64,000 bases of DNA from Actinomycetes bacterium (GCA_029782025.1 JAKOVR010000219.1:1-64000), one strand, 5' to 3'; counted from the first letter of the stretch, positions 48,072 to 64,000 are shown. Program-made: numbers and translations. The notes: generated by a model not told the origin, from the letters alone.

Positions 48072-48242
48072 TTAGGAGCGGCTGTCCTTCTTCCCGCGAA
48101 TGCTGGTGAATCCCTCGACGAGCACGAGGCAAAGCAAGAACATCGCGAGCGGCATCAGCAACAACTTGAGCAACTCGCCAAGCAACACGACGGCGATGCT
48201 GGCAAGCAGCGTGAGCGCCACAGCGCCGATGAGGCGCCTCAT
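48072..48242 (-). CDS. small membrane protein
   Basis: This 56-residue protein is almost entirely one or two membrane helices (LIGAVALTLLASIAVVLLGELLKLLLMPLAMFLLCLVLVEGF) with a basic tail. Its ATG overlaps the stop of the upstream gene (ATGA). It is the last of five small overlapping genes. A role in a transfer channel is inferred only from context. Confidence 0.55.
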   Translation of the reverse strand: MRRLIGAVALTLLASIAVVLLGELLKLLLMPLAMFLLCLVLVEGFTSIRGKKDSRS

Positions 48243-49254: not shown

Positions 49255-49419
49255 CGGCTCTCCAATCAGCCTCAGGGGCGGGATGCTCCTGTGTCAGCGA
49301 TCAGAGATACGGCGACAACGCAAGCGAGTTCAACGGGTTCGTGTCCTCCGCCCGTGAAGATCACCACATGCGCGACACCGTCGAACCGGCTGGTGAAGAT
49401 CGGTGAAGACAAGCACAAC

Positions 49420-49451
49420 ATATTGACGAACATCAATATATGTGGTACCGT
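49420..49451 (+). promoter_or_regulatory. promoter with operator palindrome over the -35 box
   Basis: TTGACG (49423-49428) and TACCGT (49446-49451) are 17 bases apart. ATATTGA-N6-TCAATAT (49420-49439) is a perfect inverted repeat covering the -35 box. This is a repressible promoter for the rightward gene at 49526, leaving a ~70-base leader. Confidence 0.7.
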
Positions 49452-49466
49452 TGTTTGGTTAGCAGA

Positions 49467-49483
49467 GCCCGCGTGAAGCGGGC
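49467..49483 (+). terminator. leader hairpin 1
   Basis: GCCCGC-GTGAA-GCGGGC forms a 6-bp GC stem right after the transcription start region. The leader of the gene at 54589 has the same kind of stem (GCCCGCT-CC-AGCGGGC). It may stabilise or attenuate the leader. Confidence 0.45.
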
Positions 49484-49502
49484 CTGCGGCTCGTGGAACT
49501 CG

Positions 49503-49521
49503 GGCTCCTTCGAAAGGAGCC
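49503..49521 (+). promoter_or_regulatory. leader hairpin 2 containing the Shine-Dalgarno sequence
   Basis: GGCTCCTT-CGA-AAGGAGCC is a perfect 8-bp stem whose right arm holds the AAGGAG ribosome-binding site of GTG 49526. The site is sequestered when folded, so translation is probably controlled by this structure. Confidence 0.7.
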
Positions 49522-49525
49522 AAGA

Positions 49526-49882
49526 GTGGTCCACGACCAGTCGGCGGCTCCGCAGCCGCCGTTTCGCCCGCCGCCGAGTTATCCGGCGGCCGACCCCGAC
49601 GAACCCGTGAAGGTGTTCGTCATCTACATCCAGCACTCGACCACCAGTGACGCCGTGCTGGCGTGGGCGCTCGAGCTTGTCGCCCGCGGCGTCGATGTGA
49701 CCATCTGGGACTACGACGCCGAACCCCTCAACTTCAGTGAGGGCATGGGCTACGAACGAACCGGGGTGCCGATCATCACCGTCGAGTACATCAACGACGG
49801 CGGGCACCTGGAGATCATCGAGGACGTCGGCGTCACGGCCGACATCCTCAACGAGTACCGCGAGATGTTTCCCGCCCCGTGA
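49526..49882 (+). CDS. thioredoxin/glutaredoxin-fold-like protein lacking cysteines
   Basis: This 118-residue protein has a proline-rich N-terminus followed by KVFVIYIQHSTTSDAVLAWALELVARGVDVTIWDYDAEP and GVPIITVEYINDGGHLEIIEDV. The beta-alpha-beta order and the cis-proline-like GVPIITV recall glutaredoxin/NrdH folds. There is no cysteine at all: the CxxC place reads HSTTSD. It is therefore not a redox enzyme, perhaps a binding or decoy version. It has an elaborate promoter, a two-hairpin leader and a strong terminator of its own. I am moderately sure it is real and unsure of the fold. Confidence 0.6.
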   Translation: MVHDQSAAPQPPFRPPPSYPAADPDEPVKVFVIYIQHSTTSDAVLAWALELVARGVDVTIWDYDAEPLNFSEGMGYERTGVPIITVEYINDGGHLEIIEDVGVTADILNEYREMFPAP

Positions 49883-49886
49883 CGCG

Positions 49887-49919
49887 CAGAGCCCCGAGGT
49901 CGATGACCTCGGGGCTCTG
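49887..49919. terminator. strong hairpin terminator
   Basis: A 15-bp perfect stem (49887-49901 with 49905-49919) around GAT, just past the stop of the preceding gene. It could also act leftward for other transcripts. Confidence 0.8.
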
Positions 49920-50037
49920 TCACGTCTGCTGACGTGGCGACCTCCGGAGAAGTCGCGGGCGGGACGTAGTCTCGCCAGGCCGGCACATGGTGCGGACGCT
50001 GTCCGCACCGGGTTCCATCTGCACTTTGTGACACGCA

Positions 50038-50562
50038 CTACGCCGTGGGCGCAGTGCTCAGCTTTGCCAAATCAGGATGCTTCGAAGTGAAGATCCTTTG
50101 CACCGTGAGGTCCATGTAAGCCCGCATCGGGGTCCGATACCACGCCCGGTAATGGGCTTCGGACCCGCCGTCGTCGTAGCCTGACCGCCGCATGATGACC
50201 ATCTGCCTTGTGCGATACCCCTCTTGCGTATCGCCCTGGTGATCGCACTCACCGATGGCGAAGAGGGCGGAGATGATCGTGGCCGCTCGCTCGTCCTCCA
50301 GCCGCAGCTCCTCGACGAGGTGCTTCAGTTGCCAGAGGACATACCCACTAGCCGAGAACCCGGTGGTGGTGCTTGCCGTCTCAATGAAGTGACTGCTCAG
50401 TAGCTTCGGGCATCGCTTCGCGATGTGAGCGACTGATGCACCGACCGGGATGAGGCTCCGCAGCTCCGCTGAGTACACCGCTCGGTCTGCAGAACCGAGC
50501 TGCGAACCCGACGGGGTACTACCGTCGAGAACGCTCATGGCTATGTCGATCCGGCCGCTCAC
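50038..50562 (-). CDS. hypothetical protein
   Basis: This 174-residue protein is mainly helical (LIPVGASVAHIAKRCPKLLSSHFIETA, GYVLWQLKHLVEELRLEDERAATIISALFAIGECDH) with a tail of strands (HYRAWYRTPMRAYMDLTVQRIF). No membrane segments or recognisable motifs. The start is GTG 50562 (GGAGG 13 bases upstream); ATG 50538 is an alternative. It lies beside the restriction cassette on the opposite strand, and its relation to it is unknown. Confidence 0.5.
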   Translation of the reverse strand: MSGRIDIAMSVLDGSTPSGSQLGSADRAVYSAELRSLIPVGASVAHIAKRCPKLLSSHFIETASTTTGFSASGYVLWQLKHLVEELRLEDERAATIISALFAIGECDHQGDTQEGYRTRQMVIMRRSGYDDGGSEAHYRAWYRTPMRAYMDLTVQRIFTSKHPDLAKLSTAPTA

Positions 50563-50795
50563 GAGCGACCGCCTCCGTCTAGCCCGAGGCTCTCATCACC
50601 GCCGCCCGACACGGAGCCGGTTGGCGGAGTGGGTTGCTGGTCATGGTGTGACCTCCTTCTGAGCTCCTTTCTGTTCGTGAGCTAGCTCAGGCCGGCTCGA
50701 AGCCGGCAGCGCCGAGAGTACCGCTCTGCCTCGCAGCGTGCTCGCGTCGGCTGCGCGGGTGCATCGTTCGCCGGAAAGTGCTGAGATCGTTGGTG

Positions 50796-51239
50796 ATGCC
50801 ATCGAAGCCCGCCCTGCCGTCGTACGCCACGGATGCTGCGGTCCGTGAGCGGATGCAGAAGCAGCCGCGCGAGGGCACTCAGCCCGAGTTGGCGCTACGC
50901 CGGGCGCTGCATCGGAGGGGGCTTCGCTATCGACTTCACCGAGCGATCGTCCCTGGCACGAGGCGCAAGGTCGACATCGTGTTTGGACCGGCGAGGGTGG
51001 CCGTCTTCGTCGACGGCTGCTTCTGGCACGGCTGTGCGAAGCACAATCCGAGACCACCGAAGGTCAACACGTGGTACTGGCCAGACAAGATCAAACGGAA
51101 CCGCGATCGCGATGCGGACACTACGGACCGGCTCACGTCGGCAGGCTGGCTCGTCGTGCGCGTGTGGGAACACGAGTCACCAGAGGTCGCCGCTGGACGC
51201 ATCGCTGCATTGGTTGAAGCGCGCCGATCGGCCGTCTGA
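50796..51239 (+). CDS. vsr: very short patch repair (Vsr) endonuclease
   Basis: This 147-residue Vsr family nuclease has AVRERMQKQPREGTQPELALRRALHRRGLRYRLHR, then KVDIVFGPARVAVFVDGCFWHGCAKH (metal Asp and zinc/His residues) and WEHES near the end. Vsr nicks the T:G mismatch made when 5-methylcytosine deaminates, protecting genomes that carry a C5 methylase. The C5 methyltransferase gene follows directly, so both belong to one restriction-modification cassette. Confidence 0.92.
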   Translation: MPSKPALPSYATDAAVRERMQKQPREGTQPELALRRALHRRGLRYRLHRAIVPGTRRKVDIVFGPARVAVFVDGCFWHGCAKHNPRPPKVNTWYWPDKIKRNRDRDADTTDRLTSAGWLVVRVWEHESPEVAAGRIAALVEARRSAV

Positions 51240-51379
51240 GCAGGTCACAGGCCATCCGCGTGCTGGCTAGGGGCGCCCGGTAGCGTCGGTCGAGCGGCCG
51301 CGGCCTGCGTGCTAGGCATCTGGATCGAGCGCGGTTGCCAATCGTACATCTGTTCGATAGGCTGCGGCCGGGAGCACTG

Positions 51380-52423
51380 ATGGCGAAGGACACGACGAAG
51401 ACGCAGCCCAAGGCCAGGCGCCAGCCGAAGAACCCCGCTGTGGCGAAGCCGGAGCAGGGTGCGTTCTTCGATGCTACCGATGAGCCGCGCGTCAAGGTAG
51501 CGAGCTTCTTCGCCGGGATCGGTGGCTTCGATCTCGGTTTCGAGCGAGCTGGAATGGAGTCGGTGTGGCAGTGCGAGAAGAAGTCGTTCTGCCTGGACAT
51601 TCTGGAGCAACACTGGCCGCACGTCCCGAGGGCAGCGGACATCACGGAGGTAGATCCCGATGACATCCCGAACGCAGAAGTCTGGGCGGGCGGGTTCCCG
51701 TGCCAAGACGTCAGCCTCGCCCGCATGGGCCCCCGCAGCGGGCTCCGTGGCAAGCAGTCTGGACTCTTCTACGACTTTGCAGAGCTCATTGGAGACCGTC
51801 GCCCCCCTCTTGTCGTCCTCGAGAACGTTGCAGCTCTCCTCTCTTCCCACGACGGAAGAGATTTCGCAATCCTCCTACGGACGCTGGCCGACTTCGGGTA
51901 TGGCGTCGCATGGCGAGTGCTTGACAGTCGATACTTCGGCGTCCCCCAGAGCCGCAGTCGAGTCTTCATTGTCGGATCTCTTGGAGGGCCCGCCAGTGCC
52001 GGATCGGTACTTTTTGAGTCCGAATGCGGCGACCGGGATTCTGAGAAGAGCCGATCGAATGGGGAGAAACTTGTTTCCCCCTTTCAGATCAGCGTTGGAG
52101 ATTCTCGCAAAGGGTTCGTCAAGAAGCTCGCGCACTGCCTCTACGCCGAGTCAGCCCGCCACACCGGCACGGACTGGTCGCGCAACTATGTCAGCTACCC
52201 GGAAGGCAAAGTCCGCCGGCTGACTCCCCTTGAGACGGAGCGGCTCCAAGGCTTCCCGGACGACTGGACAATGCCGAAGGAAGCGATGGACAACCTCGAC
52301 ATGCTCGATTCGGCTCGTTACCACGCCTGCGGCAACGCCGTTTCGGTTCCGGTGGCCGAGTGGCTCGGTAACCGCATCGTCGAACAGCTCGGCGCCTGGC
52401 TGCTCAAGCAGCAGATCGGCTAA
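51380..52423 (+). CDS. DNA cytosine-5 methyltransferase
   Basis: This 347-residue C5 methylase has motif I FFAGIGGFDLGFERAG, motif IV GGFPCQDVS (nucleophile Cys near residue 107), motif VI LENV, motif VIII-like SRSRVFIVG, and the late motifs LTPLETERLQGFPDDW and YHACGNAVSVPVAEWLG. The target recognition region (~200-255) is short. GGAG precedes ATG 51380. It overlaps the convergent HNH nuclease gene by 4 bases, making a compact type II system with vsr. Confidence 0.95.
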   Translation: MAKDTTKTQPKARRQPKNPAVAKPEQGAFFDATDEPRVKVASFFAGIGGFDLGFERAGMESVWQCEKKSFCLDILEQHWPHVPRAADITEVDPDDIPNAEVWAGGFPCQDVSLARMGPRSGLRGKQSGLFYDFAELIGDRRPPLVVLENVAALLSSHDGRDFAILLRTLADFGYGVAWRVLDSRYFGVPQSRSRVFIVGSLGGPASAGSVLFESECGDRDSEKSRSNGEKLVSPFQISVGDSRKGFVKKLAHCLYAESARHTGTDWSRNYVSYPEGKVRRLTPLETERLQGFPDDWTMPKEAMDNLDMLDSARYHACGNAVSVPVAEWLGNRIVEQLGAWLLKQQIG

Positions 52424-53592
52424 GCGAGCACGATCGACAAGTCGTCGTAGAAGCGCTCCAGGTACTTCTTCTTTGGCCAGTCGTTTCGATCGTCTGGCAA
52501 CCACTCCTCCGGTACTTCAAGGCCGTCTTCGGCGAGAAGGTAAGCGCGGGCATCGGCTGTGAGTAGTGCGTTGGCTCGAGTAGTAAACCGGAGGTGGTAC
52601 TTGCCGCCCTGCAGCACTGGCACCATGATCGCCGCATCAAAGGCCCAGTGATGCAGCCGGCACAGCGCCATGCCGTTGCTGACGACGTCGAGGTCGTAGT
52701 TGGTCCAGGCGAGGATATGGGCAGCATCAACACCGGAGGGCAGCCCACCAAAGCCGCCGAGCACCACGCCGCAGAACAAGCAACGGTGCCGATAGGCCTC
52801 CCGTACGGCCTTTGAGAACTCACGGGCCGACGGACCCCGAGCCTTGCTGAGCCGGTAGTCATGCGCTGATCGAACACGAACTTCGACGTCCTCCTCCCCG
52901 ATGTCATCGGGGGGTGGAAGATCAGGCACGTCGGCGATCTGGATGCCAACTCTGCGCTCCAACGCTGGCAGTGGGTCGTGGCCCTCGACGTAGGCCGGGT
53001 CCGCCTCGGCTAGCGCAGCGACGATCCTGTTGACCACATTCGGCAGCGAGGTCGTGATCGGCTCACCGGTGTTGATCTGGTCCTGGTGAAGACGAAGCAA
53101 TGTCGCTACTCGCGCATCCTGTTGCGCAACGGAGGCATAGATCGCCTCGATACGCCGCCAGCGCGCTTCGACGCCGAGCTGCTCCGTGTGCTCTCGGTTC
53201 TCCACCTCTACATAGTTGGGCGTGAACTGCACCGATTCGGGCGGTGATGCAAACGAGGTGCCAGGCCCGAAGCCGACCTTCTTCAGGAAGTATTCGCCCT
53301 GGCGGATGACCGGCAGCCCCACGGCCGACGCGGGTAGCTCGCGCCGCGGTGCCGGCAGTAAGAGCATCGACGCCACCATCCGACCGATCTGAAACTCCGG
53401 CTTGACGAGCGAGCGAAGTCGAGGTTTGCCGCTGTCGCCAGGGTCGAGCCACAACTGAGTGTCACGCAGCTTGCCGTCGGGCCAGAGCATGTGGAAGGTC
53501 CAGCCTTCGAGGTCGCTCGCAGACTGACCGCTCGCCCCGCTGACGATCTCGTACTCGCCGCGTCCACCCGACGTCCGGAAGCCGATGTGCAC
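52420..53592 (-). CDS. HNH restriction endonuclease
   Basis: This 390-residue protein has a C-terminal HNH domain CLFCGVVLGGFGGLPSGVDAAHILAWTNYDLDVVSNGMALCRLHHWAFD, with the paired cysteines and catalytic histidine of McrA-like enzymes. The N-terminal ~220 residues are probably the DNA-recognition part. It is convergent with and touching the C5 methylase gene, so it is most likely the nuclease of that system. Confidence 0.85.
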   Translation of the reverse strand: MHIGFRTSGGRGEYEIVSGASGQSASDLEGWTFHMLWPDGKLRDTQLWLDPGDSGKPRLRSLVKPEFQIGRMVASMLLLPAPRRELPASAVGLPVIRQGEYFLKKVGFGPGTSFASPPESVQFTPNYVEVENREHTEQLGVEARWRRIEAIYASVAQQDARVATLLRLHQDQINTGEPITTSLPNVVNRIVAALAEADPAYVEGHDPLPALERRVGIQIADVPDLPPPDDIGEEDVEVRVRSAHDYRLSKARGPSAREFSKAVREAYRHRCLFCGVVLGGFGGLPSGVDAAHILAWTNYDLDVVSNGMALCRLHHWAFDAAIMVPVLQGGKYHLRFTTRANALLTADARAYLLAEDGLEVPEEWLPDDRNDWPKKKYLERFYDDLSIVLA

Positions 53593-53651
53593 AACGACAG
53601 GCTATGCGGCATCAGGCAGCTGGCACCGGATGCCAGATGTCAGATGCCAGA

Positions 53652-53939
53652 TCACCCCGGATCGGGTGGGACATCCCCGCCATCCGCAGCCCGCTTCCGT
53701 TGCTTCCACTCGCGACTGCGCTTGTTCTTGGCCTCTCGGCACTTGTTGCAGCGGCAGCCAGTGTCGTAGCGATAGGTCGTGCCGTGCTTGCCTCTGCCGC
53801 CTTCGGCTTGGTACCGAGCGATCAGCTCACGGTGCGCCGCAGCGTTCGCTGCACGGCACTCGGCGCAACGACAGCCGCCGTACTGGTACTCGTAGATCGA
53901 TCCGTGACCTCGGGGTCGCGCCTTCTTCTTCCCGGCCAT
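53652..53939 (-). CDS. two-repeat zinc-finger-like protein
   Basis: This 95-residue basic protein contains the same module twice: HGSIYEYQYGGCRCAECRAANAAAHRE and HGTTYRYDTGCRCNKCREAKNKRSRE. Each has GCRCxxC, probably zinc-binding together with the histidine. This module is common in actinophages and mobile elements. It is probably a small nucleic-acid-binding protein. Just upstream lies the palindrome ATAGGC-C-GCCTAT (53953-53965). Confidence 0.7.
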   Translation of the reverse strand: MAGKKKARPRGHGSIYEYQYGGCRCAECRAANAAAHRELIARYQAEGGRGKHGTTYRYDTGCRCNKCREAKNKRSREWKQRKRAADGGDVPPDPG

Positions 53940-53952
53940 GCGGCCCACGACT

Positions 53953-53965
53953 ATAGGCCGCCTAT
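53953..53965. promoter_or_regulatory. 13-bp palindrome upstream of the zinc-finger gene
   Basis: ATAGGC-C-GCCTAT begins 13 bases upstream of ATG 53939, overlapping where its promoter should be. It is a likely operator; the regulator is unknown. Confidence 0.45.
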
Positions 53966-54169
53966 GCCTGACTACGATGGAGGGTGCTGAGCATCTTGGT
54001 GGCGCCCCAGGGCTCGCCGACGAGTCGGATGTGGACGCCAACACGATCAATCAACGGAAGGCGCGCTACCCAACTTCCCGAAGCCAGTACGCGCGTCCTG
54101 GAGGCAGGAAGCGTGGGTGCGACACGAATGCTTGCCCCCCGCACGGGGGCGCACCCCTTGGCTTAACTT

Positions 54170-54406
54170 CTAGCGCCGACCACCCGAACGCTGTGTCCCG
54201 GCAAGAAGCGTCAGCGGGTCGACGTCCAGAGCCTCGGCAAGTCGCTCCACGCTCCGAAGGCTGAGGTTGCGTTCGCCTCGTTCGATGCCGCCCATGTAGG
54301 TGCGGTGGACGCCCACGAGGTCGGCCAGGGCCTCTTGGGAGATCCCGCGCTCTTCCCGCCACGCCCGAACGTTGCGGCCGACGGTCTTCTGGAGGTCACC
54401 TTCCAC
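54170..54406 (-). CDS. small XRE-family regulator
   Basis: This 78-residue protein is just a Cro/CI-type helix-turn-helix: VGRNVRAWREERGISQEALADLVGVHRTYMGGIERGERNLSLRSVERLAEALDVDPLTLL. Such minimal XRE proteins often control restriction-modification cassettes (C proteins) or toxin genes. It is divergent from the gene at 54589, with an inverted repeat between them. Confidence 0.85.
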   Translation of the reverse strand: MEGDLQKTVGRNVRAWREERGISQEALADLVGVHRTYMGGIERGERNLSLRSVERLAEALDVDPLTLLAGTQRSGGRR

Positions 54407-54428
54407 GCACGGACCTTGTCCGTTGTGG

Positions 54429-54474
54429 TACTTATTGGTCTACATACTGATAAGTAGCGCCCGCTCCAGCGGGC
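54429..54474. promoter_or_regulatory. divergent operator and leader hairpin
   Basis: TACTTAT (54429-54435) and ATAAGTA (54450-54456) form a perfect inverted repeat in an AT-rich patch between the XRE gene and the rightward gene. GCCCGCT-CC-AGCGGGC (54459-54474) follows, a GC stem like that in the leader of the gene at 49526. Confidence 0.55.
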
Positions 54475-54588
54475 CCGGCGGACGAACAGGTCGCTGATCC
54501 ACGCCCGACGGGCCTAAAGACCGCGGTTGGCCCCGGCGAGGCAGTCACCTCCCGGGGCCTGGCCATCACCCCCAAGGAGGGCGATGAC

Positions 54589-54957
54589 ATGATCCACGAT
54601 ACGCAGCAAGATCTACAAGCCACGCGGTTGAGCATTGATGATCGGCTGGCGGCGTGCGAAGCCGCCATCAACGAGCTCCGCGGCGGCACGCTTACGGTGC
54701 GCCGCCTGTCGATCTGCGACGACCACGGCATCGAGCGTGCCGCCATCGACGTCAGCAAGGACTCGGCTGTGCTCAAGCTTTCCACCATCGAGCCCGGTCC
54801 CACCTGCGTCGAGCTGTTCGCTCACGAGCCGTGCGACGGTGAAGGCCCCCACATTGGGGTCGCCATCACTCGGGACGGCGACGTCGTCGGTGAGTTCGGT
54901 TTCGTCGGCGACAACGAACCAAGGGTTTGGCTCGACGTGACGCGGAACGAGGCGTAA
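54589..54957 (+). CDS. hypothetical protein
   Basis: This 122-residue protein has a short N-terminal coiled helix (TRLSIDDRLAACEAAINELRGG) followed by regular beta strands (LTVRRLSICDDHGIERAAIDVSKDSAVLKLSTI..., GVAITRDGDVVGEFGFVGDNEPRVWLDVT). The strand-turn repeats recall beta-helix or tail-fibre-like modules, but no family is certain. The Shine-Dalgarno sequence AAGGAGGG precedes the ATG; an upstream CCTCC (54549) could pair with it. Its TAA overlaps the ATG of the next gene (TAATG). Confidence 0.6.
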   Translation: MIHDTQQDLQATRLSIDDRLAACEAAINELRGGTLTVRRLSICDDHGIERAAIDVSKDSAVLKLSTIEPGPTCVELFAHEPCDGEGPHIGVAITRDGDVVGEFGFVGDNEPRVWLDVTRNEA

Positions 54958-55994
54958 TGCGCCGCCTCGCCTTGGCGTGCTGCGGCATGCTCGCGCTCGC
55001 GGCGTGCGGCTCGACCGCCAGCACGAGTACGGCAGCTGGTGGCACGACCCAGCCCTCCGCCACCGCACCGGGCACGACCGATAGGTGCAAGGCGCTGGAG
55101 ACGACTGGCTGTGGCGCGTTCACGACCACAACGGCTGGCCGATCAGGCAACAGCGCAACGGGGACGTTTCGTTCGACGACGGGCTACGACTACGCAGTCG
55201 CTATTGAGGTCGGTACCCCGACCGCGGTGGTGAGTGAGCTGAAAGCGAAGTGCGGTGCACCGCCACGTCCGAACGAGGTGCTCGTGCCGTTCAGTGTCAG
55301 TGTCCGCAACCCGTCGTCGGGAACCGAGCCCACAACGGGACTCTCAGCCAAGGTCATGATGCGCTCCGCGAGCGGTTGGGCAGTCCAGCCATCCGAAGCC
55401 GTCAACTACTACGACCCCAGCACCTCGATCTGCACCCAGAGCGGGTACCAGAACTCGATCGGCATGAACACGACGCTCGATCCAAGCGACACGATCACCT
55501 ATGACGCCAGGATCGCCCGCAGCTTCACGCGAGCCGACCTGTCCAAGTGGGCGCTGCTGGTCACCGCTGGCGACGGTAAGGCGATAGCTGGCATCACGCT
55601 GGATGGCATGCCACTCGGTGCTTCCGACATGGCGAACGTCGGTTCGGGCGGACCGACGCGGTTCCAGGGCACTTGGAGCGGTCCGGTCCACATGCTGTCA
55701 GGTGGCAAGTCCTTCGACGGTGTACTGGCGCTCAGCCTCGTCAATTGCGGGGAGGCCGGCTGCACCGCTGGAGCATCGATCACTGGTGGATCACCGGACA
55801 GCCCGGTCATGGGATCGGACTTCCAACTTGAGGGGGAGAAGCTGACCAGCAAACGATTCACAACCTGCCATTCAGGCCCCTTCGCAACCTTCACGACGAC
55901 TCTCGCGATCCAACCTGACGGCGGGCTCGCCGTGTCGAGCACGTCACCTGAGTGCCCCGACGTCAAATTGTCGGCAGTGCTCACGAAGTCGTGA
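54957..55994 (+). CDS. lipoprotein of unknown function
   Basis: This 345-residue protein has signal LALACCGMLALAACGS with lipobox LAAC, a Ser/Thr/Ala-rich linker (residues ~22-75) and then a beta-rich domain resembling DUF4352/immunoglobulin-like lipoproteins (YAVAIEVGTPTAVVSE..., VLVPFSVSVRNPSSG, DPSDTITYDARIARSFTRADLSKWALLVTAGDG). A second half has paired cysteines. It is surface-exposed; in a mobile element, surface exclusion or defence is possible. Translationally coupled to the previous gene. Confidence 0.7.
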   Translation: MRRLALACCGMLALAACGSTASTSTAAGGTTQPSATAPGTTDRCKALETTGCGAFTTTTAGRSGNSATGTFRSTTGYDYAVAIEVGTPTAVVSELKAKCGAPPRPNEVLVPFSVSVRNPSSGTEPTTGLSAKVMMRSASGWAVQPSEAVNYYDPSTSICTQSGYQNSIGMNTTLDPSDTITYDARIARSFTRADLSKWALLVTAGDGKAIAGITLDGMPLGASDMANVGSGGPTRFQGTWSGPVHMLSGGKSFDGVLALSLVNCGEAGCTAGASITGGSPDSPVMGSDFQLEGEKLTSKRFTTCHSGPFATFTTTLAIQPDGGLAVSSTSPECPDVKLSAVLTKS

Positions 55995-56122
55995 GACGAG
56001 GTAGCGAAGCGGGAGCGCCGAGCCCGAGTCACGTCCCGACGAGTGGTCTCACGCTCGAAGCGGCCGGGAAGCACGGGGCCATGATCCAGCCCATCTACGA
56101 CAACCCGTTCGCGCTCGAGTAA
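55991..56122 (+). CDS. possible 43-residue protein or gene remnant
   Basis: A GTG at 55991 overlaps the lipoprotein stop (GTGA) and opens a 43-codon frame ending HGAMIQPIYDNPFALE. The overlap pattern matches real gene pairs in this window, but the peptide has no recognisable domain. It may equally be the residue of a decayed gene. Confidence 0.3.
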   Translation: MRRGSEAGAPSPSHVPTSGLTLEAAGKHGAMIQPIYDNPFALE

Positions 56123-56161
56123 GGGACCATCGAGTAGCAACCGACCCCTGTCCCTTCTGGT

Positions 56162-56183
56162 GGGCACTCACATGTGGGTGCCC
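56162..56183 (+). terminator. hairpin in the intergenic space
   Basis: GGGCACTCAC and GTGGGTGCCC form a 10-bp stem (one G-T pair) around AT. It probably ends the lipoprotein transcript. Confidence 0.5.
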
Positions 56184-56300
56184 GCCACTTTGCGTTCGAC
56201 GGCATTGTCCATCCGATGTAGCAACTCGACTGAACGCTTCGGCGCAGCCGATGCTCGGCGCGAGGCGCTGCGCCAGGCCGAAGACGGCGACCGCCGAAAT

Positions 56301-56349
56301 CCTGAGATCAACTTATGATCGTCCCAGCGCGACAATGGTTGATCTCAGG
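56301..56349. repeat. 12-bp inverted repeats with 25-base spacer
   Basis: CCTGAGATCAAC (56301-56312) and GTTGATCTCAGG (56338-56349) are perfect arms. The right arm continues into a second small palindrome CAGGA-CTA-TCCTG (56346-56358). The region is ~50 bases before the next gene's ATG and is a likely operator pair or a recombination site. The rest of 56184-56396 holds no gene I can support. Confidence 0.65.
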
Positions 56350-56396
56350 ACTATCCTGTGATTTACTGGTGATTGACGACACCAGAAGGAGGACTT

Positions 56397-56888
56397 ATGC
56401 CAACCGTAACCATGACCCTGACAATCAACCTGCCGGAGGGCGCCAGCCTGGACGTGGCGGTGGAACGCCACGAGGTCGACGGCGCTGCTAACCGCGGGGC
56501 CGGCCCAGCCCTTTATCCGCCGGAAGTGGCAGAAGCGATCGAAGCACTGACACCATCTCGGTACCAGAAGCATGTTCGGAGCTATCTGGAAGCAGCTGTG
56601 GCTGATCTCGGATGCTCAGTAGAGGTGCCGGGCGGCAACCGGACCGACTACTTCAACGTGTTCGCGCCGCCACGGTGCAGGCGTGCCCGAGTGGCAGGCA
56701 TCACGTACAAGAGCAGCCGAACCGCGGTATTCGCTGGCGAGGTCGACCTGTCGAGATTCGACCATGCTGTCGAGACGTTGAACAGCGGCAGGTACGCCTA
56801 CCCGAAGCTGCCTCACCTCGACAGCGATGGGGCGGTGCATGAAGCGTTGGAACTCACGAGGATCGCGATCGAGCGATTCGAGCGATGA
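56397..56888 (+). CDS. hypothetical protein, partner of the AbiGi-like gene
   Basis: This 163-residue protein begins MPTVTMTLTINLPEGASLDVAVERHEV, a strand pair, then has a helix (YPPEVAEAIEALTPSRYQKHVRSYLEAAVADLGCSV) and strands with VAGITYKSSRTAVFAGEVDLS. A very good Shine-Dalgarno sequence AAGGAGG precedes ATG 56397. It ends 7 bases before the AbiGi-like gene, so the two form an operon and may act as a pair. No family recognised. Confidence 0.6.
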   Translation: MPTVTMTLTINLPEGASLDVAVERHEVDGAANRGAGPALYPPEVAEAIEALTPSRYQKHVRSYLEAAVADLGCSVEVPGGNRTDYFNVFAPPRCRRARVAGITYKSSRTAVFAGEVDLSRFDHAVETLNSGRYAYPKLPHLDSDGAVHEALELTRIAIERFER

Positions 56889-56895
56889 GGCGTCC

Positions 56896-57564
56896 ATGAT
56901 CACGGTTCATCCGCTTCGTTCGTACAACGTCCCCGATATTGGGGATCATTTGATCCACTTCACCGGGCGTACTGGTCAGCGAGTGAACGTTGACGACAAC
57001 GTTGCGACGCTTTCGCCGGAGGACCGCCTGTGGGCGATCTTGCTCCATCACGCGATCCGCGGGTTTGCCACGTTCGGCGCGCTGTCTCCTGTGTCCTGCT
57101 TTACGGAGAGCACGAAGGCGGCGGTCGCTCGATTGGTCGGCGACAGACGCTACGCGCCCTGGGGCATCGGCTTCACAAAGCAGTTCGTGTTCGACAACAA
57201 CGGCGCGCCGGTCATGTACGTGAGGGGTGACGAGTGGGCTCACGTTGAGCGCATCGGGGATCCTCTTCGGAGTCGAACCGTTCGATTCTGGCCGGGCGCT
57301 GGTGGTGAATTGCTCCCGACCTACATGGCAACGCCCTCGGAGTGGCTGCATGAACGGGAATGGCGTGTTCTTGGCGACCTTCGGTTCGGCTGGGACGATG
57401 TCGCATTCCTGATCGTTGGCGACGAGTGGTGGCAGTACCAACGGTCAACCGTGCTCGCAGGGATCGGGGCGGAGTCTCTGGGCGCCTTGCTCGAGCTCAT
57501 TCCTGTTGTCGTGCTGAGCGATGCGGGCGAGGTGGTCGAAGACTCAAGCGGAGTCTGGGCGTGA
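56896..57564 (+). CDS. AbiGi-like abortive-infection protein
   Basis: This 222-residue protein matches the pattern of AbiGi/DUF2971-like phage-resistance proteins: DHLIHFTG near the start, LWAILLHHAIRG, VSCFTES, YAPWGIGFTKQFVFDNNGAPVMYV, and a late ATPSEWLHEREWRVLGDLRF. In lactococcal AbiG such a protein partners a toxin-like subunit. The upstream gene, 7 bases away, could be that partner. The family call rests on these sequence features only. Confidence 0.55.
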   Translation: MITVHPLRSYNVPDIGDHLIHFTGRTGQRVNVDDNVATLSPEDRLWAILLHHAIRGFATFGALSPVSCFTESTKAAVARLVGDRRYAPWGIGFTKQFVFDNNGAPVMYVRGDEWAHVERIGDPLRSRTVRFWPGAGGELLPTYMATPSEWLHEREWRVLGDLRFGWDDVAFLIVGDEWWQYQRSTVLAGIGAESLGALLELIPVVVLSDAGEVVEDSSGVWA

Positions 57565-57590
57565 GCTCGAAGCCCGAACGAAGGCCGGAG

Positions 57591-58004
57591 TCACGTCCGT
57601 CCTCGGCGTGGGCGTGTAGGCACTCCGGCCTTGCGGAACTCCCGAAGCACTGTCGAGTCGTAAACACCAAAGCGCTTGCCGATTGTCGCGAGCGACTCGC
57701 CCGAGCTGTAGAGCGAAGCAGCGAGTCGGACGTCTTCGTCTGTCATGCGGCGATGCACCACTCGCGTCTCCACGCCGCGTCTGCGGAGGAGGCCCGGCAC
57801 GGTCGTGCGGTGGATGCCGAACTCCGACACGAGGTCTTGGACGGTGCAACCGGCTTTGTAGCGCGCGACAAGGTCGTCGATCTGTTCGTCGGTCAACCGG
57901 CGCTGGATCTGGCGTCGGCGATGGTCAGGGGGTGCGTCGGTTGTCTCCGGGCCTGACGAGACGTCATTCAAGGGGTTCGAGTACCGCCCACTAAGGGCCA
58001 CCAT
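57591..58004 (-). CDS. double helix-turn-helix protein, copy A
   Basis: This 137-residue protein begins MVALSGRYSNP, then a variable linker, then two resolvase-like HTH units: RRLTDEQIDDLVARYKAGCTVQDLVSEFGIHRTTVPGLLRRRGVETR and RRMTDEDVRLAASLYSSGESLATIGKRFGVYDSTVLREFRKAGVPTRPRRGR. It is paralogous to the gene at 59984, same length and orientation. These HTH units resemble Hin/Tc3-type recombinase DNA-binding domains without a catalytic domain. It flanks the left side of the AT-rich cassette. GTG 58001 is an alternative start. Confidence 0.8.
   Translation of the reverse strand: MVALSGRYSNPLNDVSSGPETTDAPPDHRRRQIQRRLTDEQIDDLVARYKAGCTVQDLVSEFGIHRTTVPGLLRRRGVETRVVHRRMTDEDVRLAASLYSSGESLATIGKRFGVYDSTVLREFRKAGVPTRPRRGRT
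57973..58003. repeat. 31-bp repeat, copy A
   Basis: Matches 60369-60399 at 29 of 31 positions. It covers the start codon region and first ~9 codons of copy A. Surrounding linker codons are not conserved between the copies. Confidence 0.8.
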
Positions 58005-58024
58005 GAATTACATACGTGTAACTT

Positions 58025-58055
58025 AAACCACCACTCTTTACAGATAGGGTGGTTT
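58025..58055 (+). promoter_or_regulatory. inverted repeat over the ribosome-binding region
   Basis: AAACCACC (58025-58032) and GGTGGTTT (58048-58055) are perfect arms 15 bases apart. The right arm includes the only Shine-Dalgarno-like GGTGG before ATG 58060, so folding would block translation. It could also be a protein operator. Confidence 0.55.
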
Positions 58056-58059
58056 ATTG

Positions 58060-58266
58060 ATGCCTAACTACTACTTCTTACACACTGCGCTCAGTGTCAA
58101 TGCCGCACAGCTCATTGAAGTAGAAATTCCTCCTTGCCAATTCGTTCCAATCGATCAGTGCCGGAAGGCAGATGATGGAGATCTGCAATTAGAACGATTA
58201 GAGCTGAGTAAACTTCTCCGAAGATGTGGGCTTCAAGCTGACAATCCCGTTGTTACTCACGCCTAG
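58060..58266 (+). CDS. small hypothetical protein in the AT-rich cassette
   Basis: This is a 68-residue protein of unknown function (MPNYYFLHTALSVNAAQLIEVEIPP...LSKLLRRCGLQADNPVVTHA). Codon use is AT-rich, unlike the flanking genes. ATG 58060 follows the inverted repeat; TTG 58057 is possible. It is the first gene of the low-GC cassette. Confidence 0.45.
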   Translation: MPNYYFLHTALSVNAAQLIEVEIPPCQFVPIDQCRKADDGDLQLERLELSKLLRRCGLQADNPVVTHA

Positions 58267-58316
58267 GCCGCCGTAAGTTGCTTTTCTTGGTGGATTCAAG
58301 GTAGCCGATCATGGGT

Positions 58317-58988
58317 TCATGAGACCTCAAACATACCCCGATATCCGGGAGGAGTCTCAAGAGGCTCGTATTTGTTGATTACTTTAGATAGTGTATGCAA
58401 ATTTACCAATTCAATGTTCGCAAAGTTCGCGAAGTTTGCGTTGGAGAGTGCCATAGAGTCCAGCTCTGACTGCGAAATCAAGTCATTTGCGTGTACGAGG
58501 TATAGCTTCTCCGTTCTTGGATAGTCGCTATACTGGGTCAGTTTCATACGGACCATCTTCGCGCAGTTGCGCTTGTCTTCGGTATAAAAGACCTCGACCC
58601 CGAAGTTCTTGTTGTGAGTATAAACAAAGTAGTCCACTCTGCTTCGACTATGAGGGACGTAGTGTGCCTCTTGATGAACAAATAGCGCACCAAATCGGCG
58701 AATTAGTAAATCGCCAACAACAGTTTCGGCTCTCCTACCTGTTTTGGATATTTGCGAAACAATTTTTCGCCTATAGTCGCCCCTACCAAAATCGACGTCC
58801 TCATAACCCAACTCAGCCCTGACATTTCTTAGCCCACCAAATGCCCTTTGAATCTGCCTTGCTGACGGAAGGTACTCACAGTCATCAATTTCTGTGGCTG
58901 TAGGTAGGTGACCGTGCTCTTCGACGTATCGGTCGAATGCGATACGCAGTCGTTCTACGGTCCATGGGTTTGGATATCGATTTGGCAT
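58317..58988 (-). CDS. possible nuclease with homing-endonuclease-type repeat
   Basis: This is a 223-residue protein. Residues 1-62 (WTVERLRIAFDRYVEEHGHLPTATEIDDCEYLPSARQIQRAFGGLRNVRAELGY) match the ~50-residue DNA-binding repeat found in HNH and homing endonucleases. Residues 85-160 resemble a PD-(D/E)xK core: RAETVVGDLL, RSRVDYFV (D119), GVEVFYTEDK (E132, K139); the E-x-K spacing is imperfect. TAGAAT (59003-58998) ends 9 bases before the ATG, suggesting a near-leaderless mRNA. AT-rich codons mark it as foreign to its surroundings. Confidence 0.55.
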   Translation of the reverse strand: MPNRYPNPWTVERLRIAFDRYVEEHGHLPTATEIDDCEYLPSARQIQRAFGGLRNVRAELGYEDVDFGRGDYRRKIVSQISKTGRRAETVVGDLLIRRFGALFVHQEAHYVPHSRSRVDYFVYTHNKNFGVEVFYTEDKRNCAKMVRMKLTQYSDYPRTEKLYLVHANDLISQSELDSMALSNANFANFANIELVNLHTLSKVINKYEPLETPPGYRGMFEVS

Positions 58989-59074
58989 GCTACATACATT
59001 CTAAACCTTGGTGAGTAGATTGGGAATGCTGTTGCGTCGAATACCTGGCGCGGGAGCTCAATCGGCGCGATAAT

Positions 59075-59090
59075 CCTTGTGTAAACAAGG
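59075..59090 (+). promoter_or_regulatory. short hairpin containing the Shine-Dalgarno sequence
   Basis: CCTTGT-GTAA-ACAAGG is a perfect 6-bp stem; its right arm runs into AAGGGA, the ribosome-binding site of ATG 59101. This repeats the design seen before 49526 and 58060. Confidence 0.5.
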
Positions 59091-59100
59091 GAACTCACAA

Positions 59101-59337
59101 ATGCCAAGTAAGAAACCTAAGGCCAACAAAGCTGGCTACTATATCTACAAATGGTATGAGGACGTCTACTATATAGCTGACGTCTGGAAAGGTATAGAAT
59201 ATGTAACCAAACAGCCACAGTTGTTCTACACTCGAAAGGCCGATATCTCAATTAGCCCAGTCTTGCGTAAAGAGCCCGACCTAGATGCTCTTGTTGTGGC
59301 TGTAATGCTTATGCTAGATGACATTGGTGAGAAATGA
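59101..59337 (+). CDS. small protein with EPDLDALVVAVMLMLDD motif
   Basis: This 78-residue protein has a basic, tyrosine-rich N-terminal part (GYYIYKWYEDVYYIADVWKG...) that looks like a small beta domain, followed by RKEPDLDALVVAVMLMLDD and a short tail. The 17-residue block is identical to that in the 59-residue protein at 47748-47927, though codons differ strongly. It stands 12 bases before the HEPN-like gene and is probably cotranscribed, so it may be its partner or antitoxin; this is an inference. Confidence 0.65.
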   Translation: MPSKKPKANKAGYYIYKWYEDVYYIADVWKGIEYVTKQPQLFYTRKADISISPVLRKEPDLDALVVAVMLMLDDIGEK

Positions 59338-59349
59338 GATAATTAGTAC

Positions 59350-59979
59350 ATGAAGCAAGTGTGCTATGAGCAAGAAGCAAAGCCCGAATACATCCGAAAA
59401 GCCTTCGGGAAGGACGATGTCTACGACTCTTGGTTGAGGAGAATCGATAGCATCGAACGGTTTACTATTGAGTCGAAGACCCCCGGCGACTCACTTTCTA
59501 TCGGATATATGCTATTTCCGCTGATTGACTCGATTGCGTTGAATCTTGGCATGTCATTCCGCCGCTACTTGGAGAAGTTGGGAATCGAACGAGCAGACAT
59601 CCTATATAAGATATTCCGGAACGGACACTTACATAATGCCGCCAACTATCGGCTTAGATATGACAATGAAGATGAAGTCGGATGGTCAATGATGTCAAGT
59701 GGTGGTAGTAGCGGATTCCACGACTATGATCCAGGATATGTTGATGAGGTGGATCCTGAAGATAGTATGCCAGCGGAGGAGGTATTCTCTTACGAGCAGT
59801 ATCAAAGTGGTGAAGTTATGGCTTACTTGAAAGTCGACAGGCTTGCAGCGTGCGTTCGACACGACCTTCTACTACGCAAAAAGAAGGACAATCGAGAAGA
59901 AATTGATGTTGTTATAGGACAGCGCATCCCTGGGAAGCGACCATCTGCTCGTCCAGCCAAGGTGATTGATCTTGGTTAG
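59350..59979 (+). CDS. possible HEPN-like RNase
   Basis: This is a 209-residue protein. The helical core holds FPLIDSIALNLGMSFRRYLEKLGIERADILYKIFRNGHLHNAANYRL. R90-N-G-H-L-H95 fits the R-x4-6-H catalytic motif of HEPN ribonucleases, and 'FRNG-LHN' is a frequent form of it in phage-defence proteins. The C-terminal third is acidic, then basic. It lies directly after the motif protein, in AT-rich DNA, and is convergent with copy B of the HTH gene (5 bases apart). Confidence 0.5.
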   Translation: MKQVCYEQEAKPEYIRKAFGKDDVYDSWLRRIDSIERFTIESKTPGDSLSIGYMLFPLIDSIALNLGMSFRRYLEKLGIERADILYKIFRNGHLHNAANYRLRYDNEDEVGWSMMSSGGSSGFHDYDPGYVDEVDPEDSMPAEEVFSYEQYQSGEVMAYLKVDRLAACVRHDLLLRKKKDNREEIDVVIGQRIPGKRPSARPAKVIDLG

Positions 59980-59983
59980 CTTC

Positions 59984-60397
59984 CTAACGCGAGCCTCGTC
60001 GAGGTCGAGTCTGAATACCCACCTTCTTGAACTCCCGATAGACAGTGGTGTCGTACACACCGAAGTGCTTGGCCACTTGAGCCAGTGACTGGCCGGTCGA
60101 GTAGAGATCGGCAGCCTTGGTGACATCCGTGTCGGACAATCGACGTTCGACGACCCTGGTAGCCACGCCACGGCGCTTCAGGTGATCGGACACTGTCGTC
60201 TTGTGAACCCCAAAGTGTTCGACTAGCTGTCGGATCGTCTGGCCTTGCTGGTACATAGACACAAGCTCATCAACTTGCGGTTGACTAAGTCTGACCTGCT
60301 TCTGACGCGACTCTCTGAGGTGCAGGGGCCTGCTACCAGGACTTTCGTCCGTTGCCGGATCTACAACAGGGTTCGAGTAGTGCCCACTAAGGGCCAC
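59984..60397 (-). CDS. double helix-turn-helix protein, copy B
   Basis: This 137-residue paralogue of the gene at 57591 starts MALSGHYSNP, then has a divergent linker and two HTH units VRLSQPQVDELVSMYQQGQTIRQLVEHFGVHKTTVSDHLKRRGVATR and RRLSDTDVTKAADLYSTGQSLAQVAKHFGVYDTTVYREFKKVGIQTRPRRG. It closes the right side of the AT-rich cassette and returns to normal G+C. GTG start. It may bind DNA at the cassette ends or repress the genes between. Confidence 0.8.
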   Translation of the reverse strand: MALSGHYSNPVVDPATDESPGSRPLHLRESRQKQVRLSQPQVDELVSMYQQGQTIRQLVEHFGVHKTTVSDHLKRRGVATRVVERRLSDTDVTKAADLYSTGQSLAQVAKHFGVYDTTVYREFKKVGIQTRPRRGSR

Positions 60398-60399
60398 CA
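60369..60399. repeat. 31-bp repeat, copy B
   Basis: Second copy of the repeat at 57973-58003 (29 of 31 identical), again over the start of an HTH gene. The two copies are in direct orientation and delimit the AT-rich cassette. Confidence 0.8.
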
Positions 60400-61221: not shown

Positions 61222-61380
61222 CTAGCCCAGTGCAAAGGGCCGGGGAATGGGACTCAGGGCGGCCGAGACGGTGGGTGTCACTCGGTCGCGGCATATCGTC
61301 TCGATCATGCGAGTGGTCGTGTGGCCGGCGATCTGATCAATCGGGACTCCTGCGTCCGACAGGGGGCCAACGGCATGTGC
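61222..61380 (-). pseudogene. C-terminal remnant of a tyrosine recombinase
   Basis: The leftward frame reads HAVGPLSDAGVPIDQIAGHTTTRMIETICRDRVTPTVSAAL, which lines up with the usual end of phage-type integrases (LSDAGVP-x-E-x-IADLLGH-x-TTRM-x-E-x-x-Y-R-H-R-x-x-P). The IADLLGH segment is shortened to IAGH and the active-site tyrosine position holds cysteine (ETICRDR). The upstream catalytic domain is absent. It is a dead fragment, evidence of an earlier integration at this place. Confidence 0.6.
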
Positions 61381-61402
61381 CAGGGCCACGTAGATTCGTG
61401 GG

Positions 61403-64000
61403 ATGGGAATCTCAGGGTCGGTGGACCTCGACCACATCGTGTCGCTGCTCGCTGATCGCGCTCGGGCGGGGCGGACAGAGTCGACGGTCCAGTCGTCCAT
61501 ACACACCTTGCTCCTAGCGGCTCAGATCGGCTTGAACGCAGATGACTTGCAGGAGGAGGTCGTTCTCGAGTCGCCCGTAAAGGGCGGCCGAATCGACATT
61601 GAACTAGGTGGCCTGGTGATCGAGGTCAAGAAGGACCTGCGCGTGGGCAGTGTCCGATCCGACGCCATCGCGCAGCTCGCGGGATACGTGCGGTCACGGG
61701 CCAAGTCGACTGGCCGGAGATACGTGGGGGTCCTAACCGATGGCGCTGAGTGGGACCTCTACTACTTGCAGCCAGATGGACTGCTAGCGAAGGTGTCTGC
61801 CTTCGTCGCGGACCCGGCGGCACCAGATCCACGGGCGTTGTGCGACTGGTTGGACTCGGTCGTCTCCGTTCGTGGTGCGATCATGCCGACGCCGGACGAG
61901 ATTCGCCACCGCCTCGGATCGGAGAGTCCCGCCTTTCGGCTCGACATGGCTGAGATGCGGGCCGTTTACGAAAAGTGCAGGGATCTACCAGAGGTCAAGC
62001 TGAAGCGGGAGCTGTGGGCGAAGCTGCTTCGGCTTGCTTTTGGCGAGGGCTTCGTTGACGACACGGAGTTGTTCCTTGAGCACACCTATCTCGTTCTTTC
62101 GGCCGAAGCGATCGCACACGCGGTAGTTGGCTTCGACCTCGCGCTACTGGCGAGCGAGCCAGCGAGGCTTCTCAGCGGTGCCGAGTTCGTCGAGCGGGGA
62201 ATCGCTGGGGTCGTCGAATCCGACTTCTTCGATTGGCTTTGCCAATCGGAGGATGGGCTGAGTCTCGTGACCGCCATCACGCGCCGGCTTGCTCACTTCG
62301 ACTGGAGCGCCACTATCGAGCATGACTTGTGCAAGGTGCTCTACCAAGCGGTGATCCCCGATGCCGAGCGCAAGCGGCTTGGCGAGTACTACACACCTGA
62401 CTGGCTTGCATCCCGGATGGTCTCGGAGATCATCACAGAACCAACCACCCAGCGAGTGCTCGATCCGTCCTGTGGGAGCGGAACCTTCCTCTTCCACGCC
62501 GTAACGAGGTGCATGGATGCGGTACTCGCTCAGGGCAAGAGCGTTGGTGACGCGATCGATGACGTGTGCGGCCGAGTGCTGGGCGTGGACATTCATCCGG
62601 TCGCGGTAACCCTTGCGCGGGTGACCTACTTGTTGGCTCTTGGCACAGCTCGCCTCGTGGAGCGCAACGGTCCGTTGGCTCTGCCCGTGTACCTCGGCGA
62701 CAGCCTGTTGCTCGACCAGGAGGGGGAGTTGTGGGACCACGGAGGCATTCGGGTGGAGACTCGCGATCACACGCTGCTGGCCGATGACTTGGTGTTTCCT
62801 AGTTCGCTATTGAGCGACGCCGGTCAGTTTGACCGATTGATTGCGCAACTGGCGAGTCGAGCAACCAATCGACCTAAGGATCACTCAAAGGTTGGGAAGG
62901 TCCCGCCTATCAAGGGCATCCTTGACAAGTACGGCGTGCAGGAGGAAGACCGAGAGGTCCTAACGAGTACCTTCGCTGTCTGGTGTGGACTGCACGACCT
63001 CGGGCGCAACCACATCTGGGGCTACTACATCCGCAATCGGGCGCGGCCTCACTGGTTGTCTCGTTCGGAGAATCGGGTTGACTGTCTCATTGGGAATCCG
63101 CCGTGGCTGTCGTATCGATTCATGCCCGAGGACTTCCGAAAGCGATTCGTGGCGATGTCTAAGGCCCGAGGCCTTTGGGGCAGTTCCTCGATTGCCACGA
63201 ACATGGACCTGTCGGGGCTCTTTGTCGCCCGATCGGTGCAGATGTACCTCCGCCAAGGCGGCCGCTTCGGTTTCGTGATGCCGCACGCTGCTCTCGGTCG
63301 TCCTCAGTTCGAAGGCTTCCGCACCGGCACCTGGCCGGCTACGAACGAGGAGCCAGCGTTCGCCAAGTTCGAGACTCCCTGGGACATGGACAAGGTCCAG
63401 TCAGTACCGGCCTACTTCCCAGTGCCAGCGTGCGTTGTCAAGGGCGTGCGCGTGAGTGGGACGGTGGAGGAGCCTTCCTCGGGGTTGGCGGGAGAGGTGG
63501 ATGTGTGGTCAGGCCAGTTGCCGGCGCCGGACTGCACATGGGCCGAGGCCGAGGCCTCCGTTGCTGTCGTCACGACCGAACTTGCGTTGCCAGGCGGAGT
63601 GGTCTCTCCGTATCTCGACAGGTTCAAGCAGGGCGCGGCACTCGTGCCGAGAGTCTTGGTGTGTGTTGAGGAGGTGTCGGCCGGCCCATTGGGGGGCGTC
63701 CCAGGGAGCAAGCGCGTCCGAAGCCACAGAACGAATCAGGAGAAGGCCCCGTGGAAGGGCGTAGCGAGCCTGCAGCGCGATGTAGAGGTCGAGTTTGTGC
63801 GGCCGATGCACCTAGGGCTGTCCGTGGCCCCCTTTCGACTGCTTGAACCGTGGAGTGTCGTGATTCCGTGGCTGGGGGATCGGCCTTTGTCTGTCGATGA
63901 GTTCGACCTGTACCCCGGAATCGATGGCTGGTGGGAAGAGGCGTCGGAGCTGTGGCACAGCAATGGAGGATCGTCGATGTCGCTCATGGAGCAGCTGGAC
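61403..64000 (+). CDS. single-chain restriction-modification enzyme (type IIG-like), truncated by the window end
   Basis: An open frame runs 866 codons to the last base. The N-terminal nuclease is GGRIDIELGGLVIEVKKDLR, with D65 and E74-V-K76, a clean PD-(D/E)xK site. The methylase core is RLGEYYTPDWLASRMV, motif I VLDPSCGSGTF near residue 352, VDIHPVAVTLARV, and motif IV NPPWLSY near 564, an N6-adenine type. The rest is probably target recognition. A stop codon four codons upstream and ATG 61403 fix the start closely. One chain would both cut and methylate, as in Eco57I/MmeI-like or BREX-associated PglX-like enzymes; the former is favoured by the nuclease motif. Confidence 0.85.
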   Translation, partial: MGISGSVDLDHIVSLLADRARAGRTESTVQSSIHTLLLAAQIGLNADDLQEEVVLESPVKGGRIDIELGGLVIEVKKDLRVGSVRSDAIAQLAGYVRSRAKSTGRRYVGVLTDGAEWDLYYLQPDGLLAKVSAFVADPAAPDPRALCDWLDSVVSVRGAIMPTPDEIRHRLGSESPAFRLDMAEMRAVYEKCRDLPEVKLKRELWAKLLRLAFGEGFVDDTELFLEHTYLVLSAEAIAHAVVGFDLALLASEPARLLSGAEFVERGIAGVVESDFFDWLCQSEDGLSLVTAITRRLAHFDWSATIEHDLCKVLYQAVIPDAERKRLGEYYTPDWLASRMVSEIITEPTTQRVLDPSCGSGTFLFHAVTRCMDAVLAQGKSVGDAIDDVCGRVLGVDIHPVAVTLARVTYLLALGTARLVERNGPLALPVYLGDSLLLDQEGELWDHGGIRVETRDHTLLADDLVFPSSLLSDAGQFDRLIAQLASRATNRPKDHSKVGKVPPIKGILDKYGVQEEDREVLTSTFAVWCGLHDLGRNHIWGYYIRNRARPHWLSRSENRVDCLIGNPPWLSYRFMPEDFRKRFVAMSKARGLWGSSSIATNMDLSGLFVARSVQMYLRQGGRFGFVMPHAALGRPQFEGFRTGTWPATNEEPAFAKFETPWDMDKVQSVPAYFPVPACVVKGVRVSGTVEEPSSGLAGEVDVWSGQLPAPDCTWAEAEASVAVVTTELALPGGVVSPYLDRFKQGAALVPRVLVCVEEVSAGPLGGVPGSKRVRSHRTNQEKAPWKGVASLQRDVEVEFVRPMHLGLSVAPFRLLEPWSVVIPWLGDRPLSVDEFDLYPGIDGWWEEASELWHSNGGSSMSLMEQLD

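Follow-up and report, generated by a model that had tools for sequence, protein, structure and literature searches.

A conserved helix-turn-helix gene start in an actinomycete genome resembles an attachment half-site of a tRNA-targeting serine recombinase family

Why do two related genes that have diverged over most of their length share a nearly invariant start? The question is raised by a 64,000-nucleotide stretch of DNA from an Actinomycetes bacterium (GCA_029782025.1 JAKOVR010000219.1:1-64000), hereafter the window, in which two genes designated HTH1 and HTH2 encode proteins with a double helix-turn-helix (HTH) domain. A preliminary description, made from the sequence, had reported two same-strand genes of 137 codons, an AT-rich interval between them and a 31-bp start that is nearly the same in both, and all of these features are present. 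The 31-mers at 57973–58003 and 60369–60399 are identical at 29 of 31 positions. GC content falls from 0.65 outside to 0.45–0.47 between the two HTH genes, and the drop starts at the GTGG core of the first of the two sites listed in Table 1. As judged from the comparisons that follow, the 31 bp most plausibly represent the P′ half of the attachment (att) site of a family of large serine recombinases (LSRs) that target the 3′ ends of tRNA genes.

Several comparisons indicate that the 31 bp are conserved as a DNA site. The first 10 codons of HTH1 and HTH2 are identical at 27 of 30 positions, compared with 23 of 30 in the next-best 10-codon window. Codons that specify the same amino acid are identical in 8 of 9 cases within these first 10 codons and in 25 of 69 cases elsewhere (Fisher p = 0.004; statistics throughout are uncorrected for shared ancestry). 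Leucine codon 3 is CTT or CTA in 26 of 31 family sites, against a background usage of 13%. The 16-bp core sequence, with no more than one mismatch allowed, has three matches genome-wide, every one of them at an HTH start. A position weight matrix (PWM) derived from 36 sites locates the GTGG core together with a distal GGTTCGA at the start of most intact HTH genes as well as standing alone; in the control, 818 kb of reversed sequence, it produced zero matches scoring >16. The preliminary description had proposed that the DNA itself is conserved and had set codon divergence as the test. That test was run, and codons do not account for the 31 bp: identity at the start lies well above that in the rest of the gene, and solo sites occur outside HTH open reading frames (ORFs). 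Of the two roles it had offered, binding or recombination, a recombination site is the more likely, in the form of a half-site derived from an LSR attP and resembling a tRNA 3′ end; an operator for the HTH protein is disfavored.

The geometry of the site is consistent with this assignment. Pseudo-palindromic arms surround a short core in the arrangement GGTTYGA-N14-GTGG-N17-TCRAACC. The core is followed by the distal motif at a distance of 20 nt in 36 of 36 HTH-associated or solo sites (the same sites from which the matrix was derived), and by the AAC of the tRNA sequence TCGAAC at 15 nt at 23 of 23 tRNA ends; in 17 of 23 LSR tails, the core is preceded by GGTTYGA at a distance of exactly 14 nt. 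Among the sites of serine integrases, attP half-sites are known to differ from those of attB by a 5-bp outward displacement of the zinc-ribbon motif (Rutherford et al. 2013, PMC3783163). The difference between +20 and +15 equals this 5-bp shift, as expected if a P′ half-site lies at the HTH start and a B′ half-site at the tRNA end. The possibility that the 31 bp conceal a tRNA gene was rejected, since their spacing exceeds that of a tRNA by 5 nt, a discrepancy that served as a clue to the attP/attB difference.

Other loci place the boundary at the same nucleotides. In both L072 and L125, the tandem copies have GTGG as their exact starting point. The upstream end of the unit in L035 is 89.5% identical to L126 11694–11779 up to GTGG, past which L035 continues into the site and an HTH gene, whereas an antisense tRNA fragment follows in L126. 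In L083, 16 nt are common to the site and the 3′ end of a tRNA-Val gene 1.4 kb away, and in L116 the distance from a solo site to the end of a tRNA-Val gene is 76 bp. An inverted repeat, CGTTGTn(4-8)ACAACG, directly precedes GTGG at tRNA ends and unit junctions (L035, L036, L083, L117, L124, L126, and L128). L133 6500–9200 contains two stacked att-like junctions within ~60 codons (FEYGDLV/VSPGQLSN and GSHTDTLV/VLARLFSN), an arrangement that suggests repeated insertion at one att site.

The gene for the candidate recombinase overlaps the tRNA-Ala gene at the left end of the larger element in the window, and the C-terminal tail of the enzyme is encoded by antisense tRNA-Ala DNA and beyond. Searching 395 genomes of the class gave homologues of this LSR in 26, and a tRNA gene lies at the LSR 3′ end in 26 of the 30 homologue loci examined. 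The target tRNAs represent at least nine amino-acid types (Ala, Val, Ser, Arg, Gly, Glu, Met, Lys, and Leu). tRNAs have the distal motif GGTTCGA/TCGAACC in common as their T-loop sequence, and many tRNA genes are therefore open to a single enzyme family. LSR and HTH genes co-occur in 11 genomes, where ~2 are expected (hypergeometric p = 4e-7), and share a contig in 11 cases from 10 genomes; they are always on the same strand, with the LSR downstream and 16 to 50 kb away. We infer that the LSR of the window acts on these sites. Comparison of the LSR with viral contigs returned one match, which was to antisense tRNA only. A tyrosine integrase at 64.5–65.7 kb of contig C123 was set aside as the candidate enzyme; no linkage to the sites was seen elsewhere, and no systematic search was made.

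Table 1 Features of the locus, with coordinates counted from the first nucleotide of the window
Feature	Coordinates	Strand	Evidence
Main integrative element, ~18.6 kb	39364–58001		att-site boundaries; Pfam; left-flank synteny with five relatives stops at tRNA-Ala
LSR, 645 aa	39187–41124	−	Resolvase PF00239 2.6e-32, Recombinase PF07508 2.7e-15, zinc ribbon PF13408 3.3e-09
tRNA-Ala(CGC), predicted integration target, supplies B′ half-site	39289–39365	+	ARAGORN; TCGAAC motif 15 nt from GTGG core
attL	39360–39384	−	Core GTGG 39360–39363; P arm GGTTCGA 39378–39384, exactly 14 nt from core; sequence
HTH1, double helix-turn-helix protein	57591–58004	−	HTH_38/HTH_7, each protein matched twice
Site 1, putative P′ half-site, unit junction	57972–58001	−	Core GTGG 57998–58001; GGTTCGA 57974–57980 (+ strand); PWM 36.7
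Second, recombinase-less tandem unit (satellite/CIME-like), AT-rich cargo and HTH2	58002–60397		GC profile; site at both ends; no recombinase domain
Inverted repeat TTACATACGTGTAA, left end of second unit	58008–58021		Sequence; other satellites have CGTTGTn(4-8)ACAACG here
Cargo ORF, 69 aa	58057–58266	+	No family match
Cargo ORF, 223 aa, possible nuclease	58317–58988	−	Weak N-terminal HNH_repeat PF18780 E = 0.0017, below cut-off
Cargo ORF, 78 aa	59101–59337	+	No family match
Cargo ORF, 209 aa	59350–59979	+	RNGHLH motif (HEPN-like pattern, unproven)
HTH2	59984–60397	−	HTH_38/HTH_7 matched twice; 57% identical to HTH1
Site 2, putative P′ half-site, outer end of second unit	60368–60397	−	Core GTGG 60394–60397; PWM 35.4

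Sites of this type divide the locus into two tandem units. The main element carries genes for the LSR, an IrrE-type peptidase, an N4/N6 methylase, a relaxase-type Replic_Relax protein, an ATPase resembling type IV secretion system coupling proteins, Vsr, a C5 methylase, an HNH_2 protein, and HTH1. With a recombinase and a relaxase and coupling protein (PF13814, 2.5e-31; PF02534, 4.6e-6) between att sites, it has the gene content of an integrative and mobilizable element, and transfer is predicted from these genes. Its left flank, moaA-moaC-tRNA-Ala, is the same in five relatives that lack an element at this tRNA; the exact joined empty site was not found among these relatives, whose right flanks do not match C123. 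Two further features of the main element are an ORF adjoining HTH1 with weak similarity to AbiGi (56902–57564; E = 0.04 to 0.26) and a predicted tRNA-Ser(CGA) at 49478–49569 that is possibly cargo or a pseudo-tRNA.

The second unit has att-type sites at both ends, and family searches of the unit found no recombinase or transfer gene. It resembles a cis-mobilizable element (CIME) and appears to be a satellite stacked at the outer end of the main element; it is probably mobile. The preliminary description was right that the unit looks mobile and that HTH genes mark boundaries, since these genes sit at the ends of elements. Its picture of a cassette bracketed by two HTH genes holds to the extent that one stands on each side, but the arrangement is not symmetric: HTH1 ends the 18.6-kb element, and HTH2 together with the cargo constitutes the second unit. 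Unrelated DNA between tandem genes had been named as a sign against a cassette; different cargo between tandem copies proved to be the rule, and the codon half of that test favored a DNA site. The four cargo genes had no homologues in the searches run. The 209-aa ORF in particular had none in 344 other genomes of the class, plasmids or viral contigs, and comparison of the cargo with PADLOC defence families gave no match at E ≤ 1. Of the homing-type nuclease suggested for the 223-aa ORF, a weak match to a “homing endonuclease associated repeat” is what was found (Table 1), and the HEPN RNase suggested for the 209-aa ORF, read from its RNGHLH motif, gained no database support. Structure models of the two ORFs had a mean predicted local distance difference test score of 45.5 (223 aa, single-sequence) and 43 (209 aa) and were not used.

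Examination of the att core revealed a relationship between the LSR and HTH reading frames. At the core the LSR frame reads L or M followed by V, and the same GTG starts the HTH gene. HTH1 starts at the GTG at 58001, with an in-frame ATG just upstream at 58004, and HTH2 likewise starts with GTG in the att core. When the core is joined, the LSR and HTH frames are open across it in 7 of 7 reconstructed elements, and at natural junctions in L077, L079, and L133 an LSR C-terminus and an HTH domain occupy one open frame. Because the frames join openly, attP seems to lie inside one LSR–HTH gene that is split by integration; because they are in register, the circular form should encode one LSR–HTH fusion, a protein that would presumably be made. 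Pairs of HTH paralogues have a ratio of nonsynonymous to synonymous proportions (pN/pS) of 0.22–0.33 (three pairs), indicative of purifying selection; the detached HTH protein thus appears to be kept by selection. The HTH module may set the direction of recombination or regulate att-proximal genes; what points to a recombination directionality factor is its position together with purifying selection. No HTH homologues were found in phage and plasmid collections, and a single HTH protein used as a query against named genomes found no relative.

These observations suggest a model in which the LSR would join attP to a tRNA 3′ end, giving the integrated order of tRNA, LSR, cargo, inward-reading HTH gene whose GTG start lies in the att core, and flank. 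Newcomers would insert beside the tRNA and shift older elements outward, thereby generating tandem arrays. Units with no LSR, whether through loss or original absence, would retain the HTH gene along with the P′ half-site, and the second unit was probably mobilized, in cis or in trans, by the LSR of its neighbor. In the circular element an LSR–HTH protein would be encoded; integration would detach the HTH portion, which would then be started at GTG. We regard with slightly more doubt than confidence the specific proposal that attP lies within the LSR’s own gene, that integration frees a double-HTH gene starting at the crossover and so acts as an integration/excision switch, and that satellites without a recombinase retain the HTH portion and travel with the element, carrying toxin–antitoxin or other cargo.

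The broader explanation, a half-site, a main element inserted by its LSR and a stacked second unit without a recombinase, is in our judgment highly probable as an account of the whole locus. The site architecture, the linkage of LSR, tRNA, and HTH genes, the tandem units, and the shared frame are features of the DNA itself. Four observations speak against the explanation or parts of it. The left arm of the second unit lacks GGTTYGA at 14 nt and has an inverted repeat instead, so that the same LSR might not recognize it. No empty site for the second unit was found in a searched set that holds no congeneric genome, the right flank being non-syntenic with relatives. At each of the three natural junctions the LSR is degraded, and one pair among the three is closely related. 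Finally, the frame agreement, for which chance is 1/3, may descend from one ancestor.

Among other explanations, it is quite improbable that the 31 bp constitute an operator through which the HTH protein regulates its own gene, with tandem HTH genes and defence cargo arising via gene duplication. The proteins have double DNA-binding domains, such proteins often have self-binding sites, and GCCC-N5-GGGC is present inside the site. However, an operator does not predict linkage to an LSR, solo sites precede unrelated toxin–antitoxin genes with no HTH gene nearby, the motif spacing fits LSR attP versus attB, and homology stops precisely at GTGG by tRNA 3′ ends. Entry of the second unit as an independent defence cassette through homologous recombination between HTH paralogues is highly improbable. 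HTH copies could serve as homology arms, and two copies on contig C67 are 82% identical over 307 bp, but outside the start the DNA of HTH1 and HTH2 is ~56% identical, which is too low for efficient homologous exchange, and the cargo boundary falls at the att core rather than within the HTH genes. Constraint on the N-terminal peptide (V)ALSGxYSNP as the sole cause of conservation is extremely improbable, for although relatives also show the pattern V[DEA]LxGxxSN, the start is almost always GTG, the leucine codons are the rare CTT/CTA, codon identity at the start far exceeds that in the rest of the gene, and solo sites outside HTH ORFs already contradict it.

Attachment half-sites of the kind favored here also head units elsewhere. 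In L031, L117, L119, and L125, solo sites without a nearby HTH gene stand in direct repeat ahead of toxin–antitoxin genes, where ParDE/VapBC-type labels reflect a reading of translations with no family search. A P′ half-site heads each module of these arrays, and the sites lie 0.7–2 kb apart, which gives the arrays an integron-like look. An integron/attC interpretation was rejected: the sites have no consistent fold on either strand and the linked recombinase is of the serine type; IntI was not searched for. Contig C67 of the genome to which the window belongs has a related arrangement of an HTH gene, OLD-like ATPase/TOPRIM cargo, and a second HTH gene, with one of the two sites degraded. On that contig, L009 7475–13757 has three HTH copies, two of which flank the OLD-like ATPase/TOPRIM gene, and a NucC/PD-DExK-like gene and a methylase adjoin. 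L087 10452–12835 and L078 8716–11051, from different genera, are HTH-marked units with apparently the same ParB-like and adenine methylase cargo, as compared by eye.

Parallels to individual parts of this arrangement have been reported. In the ssrA-specific islands of Dehalococcoides (DsiB), as far as the portions of PMC3146451 considered here describe them, the end of a serine recombinase gene overlaps the att repeat at the 3′ end of an RNA gene and islands occur in tandem; some have no integration module, and these were described as possibly cis-mobilizable, with accretion as the way they move. Unlike the present family, those islands have one target, transfer-messenger RNA, and a CcrB-like recombinase, and the same portions describe neither an HTH gene starting in the att core nor an LSR–HTH frame fusion. 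The second unit is also reminiscent of CIMEs and tandem accretion beside integrative and conjugative elements (Pavlovic et al. 2004, a concept taken here via those portions of PMC3146451), in which a recombinase-less, att-bounded unit lies by a complete element; it differs from that concept, as relayed there, in starting with an HTH gene that overlaps an att half-site. Actinobacterial integrative and conjugative elements of the serine-recombinase type (PMC3218068) share with the main element a serine recombinase, a tRNA gene target, and conjugative-type cargo. Integration of serine recombinases in tRNA genes was called rare in that survey, the examples being 8 Mycobacterium elements in one tRNA-Leu and phage RSM1 in tRNA-Ser; by contrast, the LSR family here uses at least nine tRNA types.

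The proposed split gene has its own parallels. Archaeal suicidal (SSV-type) integrases likewise carry attP inside the integrase gene, which is split upon integration, and a review states that self-disrupting recombinases are confined to archaea (PMC8371274). Those enzymes are of the tyrosine type and their catalytic protein is broken, whereas here the serine domains stay intact and only the C-terminal double HTH would be detached. In mycobacteriophage BPs, attP also lies in coding sequence and integration yields a shorter protein with changed properties; the gene that is cut there is a repressor next to the integrase, unlike the LSR–HTH gene proposed here (PMC4557955). In the literature searched, with most subscription papers outside its scope, we found no description of an LSR–HTH split and nothing related to a serine integrase, tRNA, and T-loop jointly.

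The half-site interpretation would explain a puzzling conserved gene start, point to a serine integrase family that reaches many tRNA genes by landing on the common T-loop, and define satellite units loaded with toxin–antitoxin and other genes. If the split LSR–HTH gene is real, it would build a simple direction switch into the system and supply integrases with predictable tRNA targets for strains without genetic tools. Stacking may extend beyond the second unit: to its right, a tyrosine integrase, a tyrosine integrase fragment, and an LSR remnant (61222–61506 of the window and L094 4495–6744) appear to represent further stacked islands.

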